A stretch of 33,157 nucleotides of DNA. Origin: a virus. The notes below the pieces were generated by a model. It ran no database searches and was not told the DNA's origin. It saw nothing but the letters and a program-made list of their open reading frames with translations. Position 1 is the first letter of the stretch, and every line of letters begins with the position of its first letter. The translations under genes were made by a program, and so were the position numbers. The stretch covers positions 1 through 33,157 of the IMG/VR virus record IMGVR_UViG_3300004463_000329; one strand, 5' to 3'. Shown here one piece after another: positions 4,285-9,720 of the stretch.

Positions 4285-5144
4285 TGGTCACCCCCCACGC
4301 GCTGCGCACGCTTGCGCATGCCGCCGAAGTGCGGGTTCATCAGCGAGCGCTGCTTGTTGGTGAGGCTGCCCCACCACTTGGTGAGCGAATCCATGCCGCC
4401 GTCGGCCGCGGTGGTGCCGTCGCGCTGCAGGTGTTCTTCCTCGGACACCTCGCCCGGAGCGGCGCCCTGATCGTCGCCGGTGCGATGGCTGCGGCCGCCG
4501 TTGCCGTCGTCGTCGTCGTCCTGCTCGGCCAGGCCGCAGATGGCCTTGAGCGTGTAGCGTTCCAGATAGGAAACGGTGGAGTGGCGGGCCTGCAGCGTGT
4601 TGCGCGCCGGACCGTTGTCCGGCGGGCCGCCCATCGCCACCGTCTCGAAGTGCCCCTGTGCGTGCTTCAGGATGCACGTCACCTCGATCCACTCGGGCTC
4701 GTCGCGGGTCACGTCCCAGCGCACGCCGAGCCCGTGCTTGGACAATGCCAGCTTGGTCGCCGTGACGAAGCTGTGCAGCGTGGCGTACTTCTGGCCGGAC
4801 AGCGGGCCGCTGGTGCGCGCCTTGTCTTTCAGCACCGCGAGTTCTTCACCGCGGAAGGCAGCGAAGGCGGCGTTGAAGGCCTTGACCGCCTCGCGCTGCT
4901 CGCGCTCCACTTCGCGCTTCTCGCGCTCGGCGTTGATTTGCTCCTGCTGCACCTGCAGCGCCATCAGGCGCTCCATCACCTCGACGCTGGCGTTCTGCTC
5001 GAAGGCGCGCGCGACCAGCTGGGCCGGCGTGATGACGGCCGGCATGGCCGAGGGCGTGGCGACAGGGAGCGTTTGCGCATCGATGCGCTGCGCGCCGAGC
5101 GCGGCCGAAGTCGGCGCCGGCTCGATGACTTCGATTTTGTTCAT
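4281..5144 (-). CDS. erf: ERF-family single-strand DNA annealing protein
   Basis: The 287-residue product carries the ERF superfamily core from about residue 88 to 210: 'AFNAAFAAFRGE', 'YATLHSFVTATKLALSKHGL', and the diagnostic 'STVSYLERYTLKAICGL' (189-205) followed by an Asp-rich run. ERF proteins, known from P22, anneal complementary single strands in phage recombination and genome circularisation. Residues 55-90 form a charged helix before the core. The C-terminal 75 residues are a separate basic tail ('LTNKQRSLMNPHFGGM'). It overlaps the exonuclease-like gene by four bases, the usual annealase-exonuclease pairing. Family call is high confidence. Confidence 0.88.
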   Translation of the reverse strand: MNKIEVIEPAPTSAALGAQRIDAQTLPVATPSAMPAVITPAQLVARAFEQNASVEVMERLMALQVQQEQINAEREKREVEREQREAVKAFNAAFAAFRGEELAVLKDKARTSGPLSGQKYATLHSFVTATKLALSKHGLGVRWDVTRDEPEWIEVTCILKHAQGHFETVAMGGPPDNGPARNTLQARHSTVSYLERYTLKAICGLAEQDDDDDGNGGRSHRTGDDQGAAPGEVSEEEHLQRDGTTAADGGMDSLTKWWGSLTNKQRSLMNPHFGGMRKRAQRVGGDQ

Positions 5145-6161: not shown

Positions 6162-6190
6162 ACTCTACCGAATGCGGTAGGGTCACGCAA
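6162..6190 (-). promoter_or_regulatory. Candidate leftward early promoter (PL-like)
   Basis: Read on the minus strand, TTGCGT (6190-6185) and TAGAGT (6167-6162) are separated by 17 bases. The match to the -35 box is weak (3 of 6) and to the -10 box fair (4 of 6). The perfect operator at 6165-6180 lies in the spacer and overlaps the -10. Predicted transcription would begin near 6155, giving a leader of about 30 bases before ATG 6126. The layout mirrors the rightward promoter. Confidence 0.5.
6165..6180. promoter_or_regulatory. Repressor/Cro operator, left cluster, site 1
   Basis: CTACCGAATGCGGTAG is a perfect inverted repeat of CTACCG around a 4-base spacer. The same 16-bp element recurs next door and three times at the repressor-cro junction. 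It covers the -10 region of the leftward early promoter. Confidence 0.8.
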
Positions 6191-6203
6191 CCGAATACGG
6201 TAG
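6188..6203. promoter_or_regulatory. Repressor/Cro operator, left cluster, site 2
   Basis: CAACCGAATACGGTAG has a perfect right half-site and one mismatch in the left half. Its centre is 23 bp from the first site, about two helical turns, which would allow cooperative binding of two dimers on the same face. It overlaps the -35 side of the leftward promoter. Confidence 0.75.
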
Positions 6204-6295: not shown

Positions 6296-6820
6296 ATGGC
6301 GGCGTGGCGGAGCTGGTTGCTGGGTGGATGCGTGGTCGCGGCCTTAGCTGGGCCTGCCGAAGCTATTTGCCTCAATCCGTTCGGGTGTGCGCCAAGTACG
6401 CTGGAGGAATGCCGAGCGGCAGCGGCTGAGAAGCCCACCGACATGGGTGTGAAGACGGCACTGGCTGACTGCCACGAAAAGTTTGTCGAGGCCCCTGCGC
6501 GCAAGCAGGCCGCCGAGCGTGCGGCAACGCAAGCGGCCGTCTGGAAACATCTTGCACAGGCCCCATTTCCGGAGAGCCGCAAGCGCCTGGGGGCGCCTGA
6601 TTTCAGCTCCGAGGCGCAGGAGTGCTCACCTCTGGAAGGCCGCCAAGTTCTGAAGGGCCAGCGCTGTGTGCGCCATCTCTGGCGCGACCTCAACAGAAGC
6701 ATCTGCGCCCGGCCCGGTGCGAGTCTCTACGACGCGATCGAGAGCGCCTGCTACCTCCGACTGGAGACCGTTGTGGGCAAGCCGGACGAAATATGGGCGT
6801 GGTGGCCGGAATCGTATTGA
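6296..6820 (+). CDS. Secreted Cys-containing protein, first gene of envelope island
   Basis: ATG at 6296 follows a GGGAG-type ribosome site. The 174-residue product opens with a classical Sec signal peptide: Arg5, a hydrophobic core 'WLLGGCVVAALAG', then 'PAEA' before 'ICLNPFGC', so cleavage after Ala-Glu-Ala is likely. The mature part has several cysteines (in 'CLNPFGC', 'EECRA', 'LADCHEKF', 'QECSP', 'QRCVRHL', 'SICAR', 'SACYLR') that could form disulfides in the periplasm. The C-terminus 'VVGKPDEIWAWWPES' is aromatic. Base composition is noticeably less GC-rich than the flanking operons. No family is recognised. Confidence 0.7.
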   Translation: MAAWRSWLLGGCVVAALAGPAEAICLNPFGCAPSTLEECRAAAAEKPTDMGVKTALADCHEKFVEAPARKQAAERAATQAAVWKHLAQAPFPESRKRLGAPDFSSEAQECSPLEGRQVLKGQRCVRHLWRDLNRSICARPGASLYDAIESACYLRLETVVGKPDEIWAWWPESY

Positions 6821-6830
6821 AAGGCGATTG

Positions 6831-7040
6831 ATGGAGCGGGTGGCGATGCTGGTGATCGGAGGCGGGCTGATCGGCTACGGGCTGGTGCAGCGGGGAAAGG
6901 TGCGGAAGCAGCGGCCGCACGAGCGACCCAATGGAGCACTGCCGGCCCCATACGATGTACCCGACGAGGCGGCGCGAACAGACGGAAACATTGCCCTGGT
7001 GGTCGGAGCGCTCCTTGTCCTGGGCGGCGTGTTCGCGTGA
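6831..7040 (+). CDS. Small two-pass membrane protein, 69 aa
   Basis: ATG at 6831 lies 10 bases after the previous stop with AAAGG upstream. The product has an N-terminal hydrophobic segment 'VAMLVIGGGLIGYGLV', a basic and Pro-rich central loop, and a C-terminal hydrophobic segment 'IALVVGALLVLGGVFA'. A helix-loop-helix topology with the basic loop in the cytoplasm is likely. It is co-directional with the secreted HNH gene that follows 7 bases later. The function is unknown; small bitopic and two-pass proteins often serve as phage exclusion or spanin-like factors, but no such signature is present. Confidence 0.6.
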   Translation: MERVAMLVIGGGLIGYGLVQRGKVRKQRPHERPNGALPAPYDVPDEAARTDGNIALVVGALLVLGGVFA

Positions 7041-7047
7041 ACTGACA

Positions 7048-7356
7048 GTGATCGCCGGCCTGGCGCTGGCCGCGCTGCTGGCGTCAGCGGCCCACGCCGC
7101 TGACCGCTCCCCGGCCGTCAAAGCCGAGTTCCGCCGCGCCAATCCGTGCCCGAGCACGGGCCGCACGACGGGGGCCTGCCCGGGGTGGCAGGTAGATCAT
7201 GCGACCGCCCTGATCTGCGGCGGCAAGGACGAGGTGAGCAATCTCCACTGGCTCAGCGTGACCGAGCACAAGGCCAAGACGAGGGTGGAGGTGAAGCTGT
7301 GCCGGTCGCACGAAAGAGCCTCGGGCAGGGCGCACAATCCGCCGGTCCGTCAATAA
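7048..7356 (+). CDS. Secreted HNH endonuclease
   Basis: From GTG 7048 the product is 102 residues: signal peptide 'IAGLALAALLASAAHA' with likely cleavage before 'ADRSP', then a compact HNH domain. The motif is readable as Asp50-His51 in 'GWQVDHATALICGG', Asn65 in 'EVSNLHWLS' and His74 with Lys in 'TEHKAKT'. Two cysteines (34 and 44) flank the first strand. The HNH fold cuts DNA by a one-metal mechanism; export to the periplasm is inferred from the signal peptide. The GTG has only a weak ribosome site, so coupling to the previous gene (stop at 7040) is likely. It sits among membrane-protein genes between the phage's two operator clusters. A host-derived nuclease or superinfection-exclusion factor are both possible. 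Confidence 0.75.
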   Translation: MIAGLALAALLASAAHAADRSPAVKAEFRRANPCPSTGRTTGACPGWQVDHATALICGGKDEVSNLHWLSVTEHKAKTRVEVKLCRSHERASGRAHNPPVRQ

Positions 7357-7370
7357 GGGGAACGACAACC

Positions 7371-7733
7371 ATGGCCAGCAAGCCGACCGGCGCGCCCGCG
7401 CCGGTGAAGGGCATCACGGTTGCGCAGGCGATCCGTGACGTGTTCATCGCCTCGATCAACAAAGGTCAGTTCCCGTTTGCTATTGTCGGGGGCATCGCGC
7501 TGCTGATGGTCTTCCGGCTGCCCGAAAGCGAGATCGTCCCCCTCATTCATTGGATGGTCGATCGCCTGGCCGACAATAGACTGGTCGGCTACGCTCTTTT
7601 CGTCCTTTCGGTTGCTGGCTGGTACATCCATGCTCAGCGCATGCGAAGGGAGTTCACCCTGCAGTTGGACGCGATGTTCAAAGGCAAGAAACAAGGCGGC
7701 ACCAAAAGTGCCTCCGCTGCCAAAGGAGGCTGA
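7371..7733 (+). CDS. Two-pass inner-membrane protein, 120 aa
   Basis: ATG at 7371 is preceded by AAGGGGA at a suitable distance. After about 30 polar residues there are two hydrophobic segments: 'FPFAIVGGIALLMVF' and, after a charged loop, 'LVGYALFVLSVAGWYIHA'. The tail is basic and Lys/Gly/Ser-rich and probably cytoplasmic. The gene continues the run of envelope proteins. No family is recognised. Confidence 0.65.
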   Translation: MASKPTGAPAPVKGITVAQAIRDVFIASINKGQFPFAIVGGIALLMVFRLPESEIVPLIHWMVDRLADNRLVGYALFVLSVAGWYIHAQRMRREFTLQLDAMFKGKKQGGTKSASAAKGG

Positions 7734-7735
7734 CC

Positions 7736-8260
7736 ATGCTGGGCTACCTGATCCTGGGGCTGCTGCTCCTGGCGTTCTGCCACTTCATCATCGATGGCAT
7801 CCTCGCGCCATCGACTCGGCTCGCCACGCGCATGAAGGTCTTGAACGACCTGCAGGCGCTCGACGAGGCACGCGCGGAGCGGCCGCAGGCGGTGCCCGAG
7901 CCGGCCTACCGCGGTCTGCGCTCGCGCCTGCACAACTTCATCGAGTGCATGCCTCACTACACGCTGTGCACAGTGGTATCGGTGCACATGGAGCTGCGCA
8001 GACGGCCTGAGTTGCTCGAAGAGGCGAAGGCTCGTGTGAAGCCCGTCGAGGAATGCTCCGACAGCGTTTTCGCGAAGATCCGCAGCCGGGTGACCGGGCA
8101 CGCCGACCGGACGCTGACCTGGAACACGATGGGCTGGATGCTGTACCTGATCCCCGTGATCGTCGCAGTGACGATGTACCGGTCCACGCATCGCGTGGTG
8201 CGCGCCATCCTGGCCATGCCGGAGCCGCAGGTGCACCGATTTGACCGCGCAAGCTGTTAG
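7736..8260 (+). CDS. Membrane protein closing the envelope island, 174 aa
   Basis: A strong AGGAGG site precedes ATG 7736, two bases after the previous stop. The 174-residue protein has an N-terminal hydrophobic anchor 'LILGLLLLAFCHFIIDGIL', a charged helical middle domain of about 100 residues, and a second membrane segment 'MLYLIPVIVAVTMY' near residue 145, followed by a short basic tail. The middle domain would lie on one side of the inner membrane. It is the last gene before a rho-independent terminator. The function is unknown. Confidence 0.65.
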   Translation: MLGYLILGLLLLAFCHFIIDGILAPSTRLATRMKVLNDLQALDEARAERPQAVPEPAYRGLRSRLHNFIECMPHYTLCTVVSVHMELRRRPELLEEAKARVKPVEECSDSVFAKIRSRVTGHADRTLTWNTMGWMLYLIPVIVAVTMYRSTHRVVRAILAMPEPQVHRFDRASC

Positions 8261-8282
8261 CCTTCGCCGACCCGTTCTCGTG

Positions 8283-8305
8283 AGCCCGCCCTGGCGGGCT
8301 TTTTC
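8283..8305 (+). terminator. Rho-independent terminator after the envelope island
   Basis: AGCCCGCC-CT-GGCGGGCT forms a fully complementary stem (in practice 7 bp with a 4-base loop) followed directly by TTTTTC. It lies 23 bases after the stop of the last island gene, separating this transcript from the STAS-like gene. The remaining bases to 8427 hold only a possible promoter and leader; I see no gene there. Confidence 0.85.
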
Positions 8306-8427
8306 ATTCCGCCCCCAGTCCGCCAAATAGTGCCCGTTCGATGTGCCTTTTCCGTAGGGCGCTGGCTCGCCCACTGAGCTAGCCTCATCGGTACAGTGCC
8401 CAGTAATTTCTACAGGCGTGGGAGCAA

Positions 8428-8841
8428 ATGGACAAGGTGAGGTTCGAGGCGCATCGCGCAGGCGGCGCACTCGTGGTTCAGGTGAGCGGGCTGTTCACGC
8501 GCCGGGCCGCACACGACTTGTGCGGCTTGCTTTCCGAAGAGTTGGGCAGGGCGGCGGCCGTCAAGGCGCTTATTGACCTGCGGCTGGCGGCCATTCTGAC
8601 AACCGCCGCCGACTTGAGCGCGGTGATGACCCGTTCAGGCTCCGAGTGGCCGAGCGTTGGCGTGGCCACGGGAATCCTCGTGGACCCGGCCTACGAGAAG
8701 CTGTGCTGGCAGCACTGCCTCACGATGATGCAGCGCGGCCACACGCGCATGCCCTTCATTCATCTGCAGGATGCTCTGCGCTGGCTTGGAGTTGCTGTGC
8801 CAGCCCTGCAACCCACCCGAACGTTTCTTCCGGTGTCTTAG
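8428..8841 (+). CDS. STAS-like domain protein, convergent with the repressor gene
   Basis: ATG at 8428 has GGGAG just upstream. The 137-residue product reads like a STAS-type alternating beta/alpha fold: strand 'GALVVQVSG', helix 'AAHDLCGLLSEELGR', strand 'KALIDLRLAAI', helix 'ADLSAVMTRS', strand 'VGVATGILVD', then helices. STAS domains usually bind partners or nucleotides. The conserved phosphorylatable Ser of anti-sigma antagonists is not evident. The 3' end overlaps the convergent repressor gene by 86 bases, so transcription of one could interfere with the other. The fold call is tentative. Confidence 0.5.
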   Translation: MDKVRFEAHRAGGALVVQVSGLFTRRAAHDLCGLLSEELGRAAAVKALIDLRLAAILTTAADLSAVMTRSGSEWPSVGVATGILVDPAYEKLCWQHCLTMMQRGHTRMPFIHLQDALRWLGVAVPALQPTRTFLPVS

Positions 8842-9205
8842 GCGGCCGCGCGAAGGCGGCCAGCTCGCAGATCTTCATCGCCCAGGCGCGCCGCACAGGG
8901 TCGTTCGCCAGGTCGTCCAACTGGCGCGCGATACGCAAGGCCTCGGATGACAGGCCCGATGAGTCGGCCTGCACACCCTGAGGGTGCAACAGCTGCCAGG
9001 GATGCACATCGCTGCCTAGCGCGCCAGCGATCTTCTCCACCACGTCCACGCCCACGCTGCGCCGCTTCTCCTTGATGTCGGAGACGGCGCTGGCGCCTAT
9101 GCGTGCACGAGCCCTGAGCCGGGTCAGATTGACCCTGCCCCAGCGCTTCTCCATGAGCGCCGAGATGTTGCTCCATAGCGTTTCACGTAGGGTTTCCTCG
9201 CTCAT
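8756..9205 (-). CDS. CI-like phage repressor (short, no S24 peptidase domain)
   Basis: ATG at 9205 lies inside an operator. The 149-residue product has an XRE-type helix-turn-helix at about residues 25-72 ('LTRLRARARIGASAVSDIKE', then 'VGVDVVEKIAGALG' and 'HPWQLLHP'). The C-terminal half (85-149) is helical and could dimerise, but it has no room for, and no sign of, a LexA/S24 Ser-Lys autocleavage domain. It is divergent from the Cro-like gene with three operators between, the standard arrangement of a lysogeny switch. The proposed promoter would make the mRNA almost leaderless, as for lambda PRM. Function by fold and context is secure; mode of induction is unknown. Confidence 0.82.
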   Translation of the reverse strand: MSEETLRETLWSNISALMEKRWGRVNLTRLRARARIGASAVSDIKEKRRSVGVDVVEKIAGALGSDVHPWQLLHPQGVQADSSGLSSEALRIARQLDDLANDPVRRAWAMKICELAAFARPPKTPEETFGWVAGLAQQLQASAEHPADE

Positions 9206-9218
9206 CCGAAAACGGTAG
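9203..9218. promoter_or_regulatory. Repressor/Cro operator, right cluster, site nearest the repressor
   Basis: CATCCGAAAACGGTAG keeps the perfect right half-site, with two mismatches in the left half. It overlaps the repressor start codon and abuts the -35 box of the rightward promoter, so occupancy would affect repressor transcription or translation. Confidence 0.7.
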
Positions 9219-9248
9219 TTGACAAGACCTACCGAATTCGGATTCAAT
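9219..9248 (+). promoter_or_regulatory. Rightward early promoter (PR-like)
   Basis: A perfect TTGACA (9219-9224) and TTCAAT (9243-9248, 4 of 6) are 18 bases apart. One operator lies entirely within the spacer and another covers the expected start site near 9256, so repressor binding would block polymerase. The opposite strand of the same segment offers a weaker repressor promoter: TTGAAT (9247-9242) and TGTCAA (9224-9219), 17 bases apart. Confidence 0.7.
9229..9244. promoter_or_regulatory. Repressor/Cro operator, right cluster, middle site
   Basis: CTACCGAATTCGGATT has a perfect left half-site and a 10-bp perfect core palindrome CCGAATTCGG. It lies between the -35 and -10 boxes of the rightward promoter, 26 bp centre-to-centre from the repressor-proximal site. 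Confidence 0.75.
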
Positions 9249-9251
9249 GGC

Positions 9252-9267
9252 GTACCGTATGCGGTAG
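9252..9267. promoter_or_regulatory. Repressor/Cro operator, right cluster, site nearest cro
   Basis: GTACCGTATGCGGTAG matches the consensus at 14 of 16 positions and has a perfect right half. It covers the predicted transcription start and ends nine bases before the Cro-like ATG, 23 bp from the middle site. Confidence 0.75.
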
Positions 9268-9275
9268 ATTCAGCG

Positions 9276-9638
9276 ATGGACGCCAACATTCCAAGCCCCG
9301 ACGAAGTGAAAGCCGCCCTTGAGCCCCTGGGGTACGCGCAGATGAAGGAGCTGTCTCGTCGCTCCGGCGTGGCGTTCACGACCCTGTGGAAGGCCAAGAC
9401 CGGGGAGACGAAAGACCCAGGCGTCAGCAAGGTGCGCGCGTTCTGGCCTCACATCGGCGCAGTGCGCGCATGGGCGCCTGCTGCCCCCGTCGCGGCCGCA
9501 GCGAACGATCACGCCGACGCCGCGGCTGAGCCGCGCTCCGACCACGACCGCCGCAGCGGCATCGAGCACTTCGGCACGGTCAACAGCGACCGCATCAACG
9601 ACAACCGCTCCGGCGCTGACCGCCGCACGGAGCGCTGA
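9276..9638 (+). CDS. Cro-like helix-turn-helix regulator
   Basis: ATG at 9276 is the first start after the operator-covered promoter; the frame also opens from TTG 9219, but that lies inside the -35 box. The 120-residue product has a compact helix-turn-helix at residues 21-58 ('MKELSRRSGVAFTTLWKAKT' and the following helix). The tail is Ala-rich and then Asp/Arg-rich ('DHDRRSGIEHFG', 'DNRSGADRRTER') and probably disordered. Divergence from the repressor across shared operators gives the Cro assignment. No clear ribosome site precedes the ATG. Confidence 0.75.
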   Translation: MDANIPSPDEVKAALEPLGYAQMKELSRRSGVAFTTLWKAKTGETKDPGVSKVRAFWPHIGAVRAWAPAAPVAAAANDHADAAAEPRSDHDRRSGIEHFGTVNSDRINDNRSGADRRTER

Positions 9639-9643
9639 GCAAT

Positions 9644-9720
9644 GGGCACTCGCTCCTTCCGACACGAGGGTTCCGGGAAATCACCCATCGTGCCGCGGGG
9701 CGAGTGCCCGCCCTTTTCCC
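9644..9720 (+). terminator. Two-tier RNA hairpin after cro (terminator- or put-like)
   Basis: An outer stem pairs GGGCACTCGCTCC (9644-9656) with GGGGCGAGTGCCC (9697-9709), 13 bp including one G-U. It encloses a second stem pairing CACGAGGGT (9663-9671) with ACCCATCGTG (9683-9692) with one bulged A. The 3' side runs into GCCCTTTTCCC. The position just after cro is that of lambda tR1. It could be a terminator, or a structured antitermination site like the put RNAs of HK022. An open frame over it (9642-9860) looks non-coding. Confidence 0.55.

Follow-up and report, generated by a model that had tools for sequence, protein, structure and literature searches.

A TIR-less homologue of the 2TM-1TM pair and a predicted exported HNH protein in the immunity region of a P22-like phage: candidate exclusion modules in a variable slot

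The window, by which we mean the whole stretch of DNA analysed (33,157 bp), is a complete IMG/VR record of a P22-like temperate phage, marked as such by its portal (PHROG 156) and major head (PHROG 334) genes; its leftward early operon carries an Erf-like annealing protein and an exonuclease. No similar DNA was found when phage records were searched with the window. Positions 6296–8260 are filled by five plus-strand open reading frames, genes A to E, which an earlier, sequence-only reading had described as co-directional genes for a cysteine-rich protein with a signal peptide (A), a two-pass protein (B), an HNH protein (C) and two further membrane proteins (D and E). These features are confirmed in the sequence, export being a prediction. 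Our home-made gene caller errs on some high-GC frames, having missed genes A to C and the 1TM gene of another locus, L010, and the key frames were therefore verified through homology.

A GC-rich, terminator-like hairpin with a T-run (8282–8301, plus strand) closes the island. The terminator scan returned 6 sites against 4.3 expected by chance, close enough to chance that only the strength of this hairpin carries weight, and it is on that strength that the island can be said to have its own terminator, as first proposed. At 65.0% GC the island is lower than the adjacent 5 kb on the left (70.4%) and on the right (68.0%), and 5.8% of windows of the same size have GC as low; the adjoining immunity region (8261–9700), however, has 65.3%, so that the lower GC reported earlier is real with respect to the 5-kb flanks but is no hallmark of an island. 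Low GC was therefore rejected as a sign of foreign origin, this neighbouring region being equally low.

The genes lie, as had been claimed, between left operators and the immunity genes. A palindromic operator, TACCGnATnCGGTA, is common to four sites in the window (6166–6179, 6189–6202, 9230–9243 and 9253–9266), where 0.26 would be expected by chance. The left pair, OL (6166–6202), comprises TACCGAATGCGGTA and AACCGAATACGGTA, 23 bp apart, and the right pair, OR (9230–9266), two TACCGnATnCGGTA sites. By eye, OL overlaps a leftward promoter-like sequence (TTGCGT...TAGAGT on the minus strand), and the segment 9219–9248, with TTGACA near 9219, the operator and TTCAAT, resembles a rightward promoter overlapped by OR. 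A Cro-like repressor is encoded at 9276–9638 on the plus strand (PHROG 9425, E 5.6e-7), and a repressor-like protein with weak helix-turn-helix (HTH) matches at 8837–9205 on the minus strand, convergent with genes A to F. Gene F (8428–8841, plus strand; 137 aa) is conserved at its place between repressor and cargo slot, where it accompanies C and the convergent repressor in L041, L042 and L045 as well; it has no Pfam or PHROG match and looks STAS-like by eye only, and its 3′ end overlaps the end of the repressor gene by a few bases. Since genes A to E are oriented against the repressor gene they are absent from its transcript, and they would require a promoter of their own close to the left operator; a scan of the window found no good sigma-70 promoter for them.

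Gene A (6296–6820, plus strand), with an RBS-like AGGGAGAG, encodes a predicted secreted protein of 174 aa with a putative signal peptide and 9 cysteines. Profile searches assigned it to no family, with no credible Pfam or NCBIfam match, and no relatives were found in IMG/VR or phage records. As its codon-position bias is also only moderate, A is the least certain gene of the five, and by sequence comparison it is an orphan.

Genes D (7371–7733) and E (7736–8260), both on the plus strand and separated by 2 nt, encode homologues of the two membrane components of a validated anti-phage system. The product of gene D (120 aa) has two transmembrane segments by hydropathy and matches the PADLOC 2TM-TIR model (PDLC02978, E 4.8e-27), and that of gene E (174 aa), with transmembrane segments at its N- and C-terminus, matches the 1TM-TIR model (PDLC02977, E 7.4e-25); neither has a credible Pfam or NCBIfam family. 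The 1TM and 2TM proteins of the P2-like phage AC1 match the same models, and the AC1 TIR protein matches PDLC03016. In the AC1 report, E. coli C carrying the three-gene cassette was protected from lambda, LF82_P8 and P2, and the authors suggest that a messenger made by the TIR protein activates the membrane proteins (Rousset et al. 2022, PMC9122126); the published text reports no single-gene deletions (PMC9122126). The window pair is like the AC1 genes in the order of the pair, the homology of its proteins and its place in a prophage-borne cargo locus. It differs in lying within the immunity region of a phage that is P22-like, and in that the 33 kb record contains no match to PDLC03016 or to Pfam TIR_2 (PF13676), and D-E was rejected as a full 2TM-1TM-TIR member for this reason.

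Most pairs carry two hallmark motifs, LFxLRD, which in the 1TM protein follows the first transmembrane helix, and an SSx tail on the 2TM protein. Both are absent together in a Burkholderiales subfamily made up of the window pair and those of L006, L007, L008 and L018, which suggests from sequence that the two motifs may function together, this co-loss being drawn from related sequences and so not amounting to a statistical test. The loss of both also means that the function of D-E may differ from that of other pairs. An AlphaFold2 model of the gene E product (pLDDT 90) places transmembrane helices at residues 2–48 and 110–160 and a cytoplasmic bundle at 55–106. Fold searches with it gave no match at E<0.001 in the PDB or BFVD, and a profile search of the PDB gave nothing credible.

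The pair occurs elsewhere, and mostly apart from TIR. In homologous pairs the 2TM gene always comes first and the 1TM gene second, at a spacing of between -14 and +22 nt; such pairs were found in 13 IMG/VR contigs, the GC of the carriers ranging from 34 to 63%. Among Burkholderiaceae, 6 of 401 genomes have the pair by the 1TM model, and among Pseudomonadota 10 of 399, the weaker matches being distant. When TIR genes were sought with the AC1 TIR family and TIR_2, only two of the 29 pair-bearing records, the window included, had one near the pair (G804 and G805), although two records (L007 and L011) stop at the pair and allow no verdict. An AC1-type pair accompanied by TIR is present in 13 E. 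coli genomes, and a divergent pair occurs as a prophage copy in six more; both of the divergent loci that were read (L038 and L039) hold a TIR-less pair between Rz and an HNH/terminase block, and the L038 proteins match the PADLOC models at E 5.5e-57 and 7e-79. At L039 (5729–7340, E. coli JNEC-KY176) the HNH gene beside the pair is split by an IS3 element and the pair is intact. A literature search on the 2TM-1TM pair without TIR returned nothing specific.

Gene C (7048–7356, plus strand) encodes a candidate exported nuclease of 102 aa, counted from a putative GTG start at 7048. The predicted signal peptide is an N-terminal hydrophobic stretch ending in AHA, and relatives carry similar stretches. 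The HNH residues D50-H51, N65 and H73 are present (alignment A3), the protein matches PHROG 333 and other families (E 2e-6), and its AlphaFold2 model (pLDDT 82) shows the HNH (beta-beta-alpha) fold. The best matches in the PDB, from profile and fold searches, were ZRANB3, Cas8f-HNH and McrA, the HNH domains of the first two being the closest of known structure. No fold match was below E 1e-3; by profile, the protein matches the HNH domain of ZRANB3 at E 4e-5.

Relatives of gene C that carry the third HNH histidine are associated with phage repressors. Among non-redundant relatives, 18 of 32 with this histidine follow a CI-type repressor encoded on their own strand, at a distance of no more than 1.5 kb, compared with 4 of 41 that lack it (Fisher p 2e-5) and with 79 of 1059 background genes (p 4e-12), both p-values ignoring kinship among loci. 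The figure of 18 may be an undercount, as the repressor model missed HTH repressors such as those upstream of C in L043 and L171. At about 20 of 31 such loci, by inspection, the gene immediately upstream of the C relative is predicted to encode a small membrane protein, a secreted protein or a lipoprotein, and these envelope proteins belong to differing families. The recurring order is thus repressor, small envelope protein and predicted exported HNH protein; a literature search on repressor-linked exported HNH proteins returned nothing specific.

In the window the envelope partner is gene B (6831–7040, plus strand), whose product of 69 aa has two hydrophobic segments. Profile searches including Pfam and NCBIfam detected no relation to any family, phage records held no relatives, and the 401 Burkholderiaceae genomes gave only two marginal matches, both within longer frames. 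A homologue 40% identical in sequence lies in L021, directly between the repressor and a C homologue, and this is the one further contig from which B-C linkage is known.

It could be supposed that gene C alone matters, as an anti-transformation nuclease guarding the prophage against removal by homologous transforming DNA, in the manner of Dns from the Campylobacter prophage CJIE1, with D and E as passengers. The repressor-side position of its relatives fits such a role, as does the finding that DNases of mobile elements cut transformation by orders of magnitude (PMC4774983); we nevertheless think it doubtful, as D-E is conserved as an ordered pair and is related to a validated defence cassette.

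Three contigs from one metagenome (L041, L042 and L045) have the architecture of the window and show what varies within it. In their common frame the early genes run leftward and an envelope gene rightward; a C homologue comes next, then the segment that varies, then an F homologue in the position equivalent to that of gene F, and finally the repressor gene on the minus strand. In place of D-E, L041 has a Fic/Doc gene, L042 has nothing and L045 a different HNH gene. Such high turnover of cargo would also be expected of neutral morons that have no defensive role, gene C being, for example, a nutritional or competition DNase. We regard this as improbable: the repressor linkage of C is non-random, and the settings of D-E are defence-associated. 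In L016 the P2 defence hotspot, which lies between gpA and the portal gene, has the pair as its sole cargo, and among chromosomal relatives AbiLi/AbiLii adjoin the pair at L158 and a type I restriction gene (REase) adjoins it at L159.

The same settings bear on the idea that D and E are a late-expressed pair with an accessory role in lysis or of holin type. Lysis genes directly precede the pair in L006, L018 and the E. coli loci L038 and L039, but none lie near it in the window, in the P2 hotspot or at the chromosomal loci flanked by AbiL or restriction genes, and the large cytoplasmic helical domain in the model of gene E also speaks against such a role, which appears quite improbable. That A to E form a single co-evolved five-gene exclusion system, as their tight co-directional packing and common terminator might suggest, can be set aside as very improbable, for genes A to E as a whole were found at no other locus among the genomes and contigs searched, C, B-C, C-F and D-E each occur separately in other genomes, and A is an orphan.

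A conserved five-gene unit is accordingly rejected, and with it the coordinated system that the sequence-only reading had proposed; that reading had itself named scattering of the genes as evidence against unity. Its observations hold in most points, and its direction was right as to the cargo location, the HNH protein with predicted export and small envelope neighbours, and the relation of D and E to anti-phage defence. We consider it about an even proposition that the interval between OL and the repressor is a variable cargo slot containing two separable exclusion modules and an orphan secreted protein.

More specifically, and with a probability of roughly 0.4, we propose that 2TM-1TM is a phage-borne system for defence or exclusion that is widespread and sufficient by itself, to which TIR is an occasional addition, and which is missed if TIR is required; in the window it would share a lysogeny-side slot with gene B and an exported HNH protein that intercepts periplasmic DNA. 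Genes A to E would be expressed in the lysogen. D-E would work without TIR, as in most carriers, and would probably sense infection at the inner membrane and respond by changing membrane integrity (abortive infection) or by blocking entry. The gene C product would be exported and would cleave double-stranded DNA, either periplasmically or extracellularly, and the gene B product, a putative small inner-membrane protein, may serve as its anchor, its immunity partner or an entry blocker. The target of B-C would most plausibly be transforming DNA, with its potential to replace the prophage, or else the DNA of a superinfecting phage. If the TIR-less pair is active, the AC1 model, in which a nucleotide signal from TIR drives membrane effectors, is incomplete, and a defence unit that would escape rules looking for all three genes is present in many prophages. 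The non-random pairing of predicted exported HNH proteins with phage repressors across Burkholderiaceae prophages likewise offers a testable case of policing of the periplasm against foreign DNA.

The system had been called undescribed, which holds only in part, since both 2TM-1TM, as a pair of components, and prophage DNases that prevent the uptake of DNA were known before. Mobile-element DNases that block natural transformation include Dns of C. jejuni CJIE1, CJIE2 and CJIE4, IdeA of V. cholerae and YokF of B. subtilis (PMC4774983). Gene C resembles these in lying on a prophage or integrated element and in encoding a nuclease with predicted export, but its product is an HNH protein of ~100 aa whose activity is predicted. 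Dns and IdeA are nucleases of another family. SNIPE is a membrane-anchored nuclease found in association with ManYZ and the tape measure protein (PMC13190303); the likeness of gene C to it is one of concept, the cleavage of incoming DNA at the envelope, and the two are set apart by description, the gene C product being a small (102 aa), predicted soluble export with the membrane proteins encoded by separate genes. T4 Imm, HK97 gp15 and P22 SieA are phage membrane proteins that stop DNA entry (PMC11436027). Gene B likewise encodes a predicted small two-TM phage membrane protein (69 aa), with no sequence relation to any family detected by profile searches. In lambda, the slot between the left operator and the repressor gene carries rexAB and sieB. 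The window slot holds its cargo in the same place, but in rightward orientation and with different genes.

Predicted exported HNH proteins are also found in other arrangements. A second branch, seen in L030, L033, L036 and others, lies among tail or lysis genes; it has KDRWE in place of the third histidine and possibly a different or lost activity. In L046 (~4390–5000) a MazE/MazF-like toxin-antitoxin pair, recognised by eye, precedes the C homologue. Two Mu-like prophages (L174 and L178) show a repressor, homologous small two-TM proteins of 66 and 78 aa, and then a predicted exported HNH protein, so that these two-TM proteins constitute a second envelope-partner family besides B.
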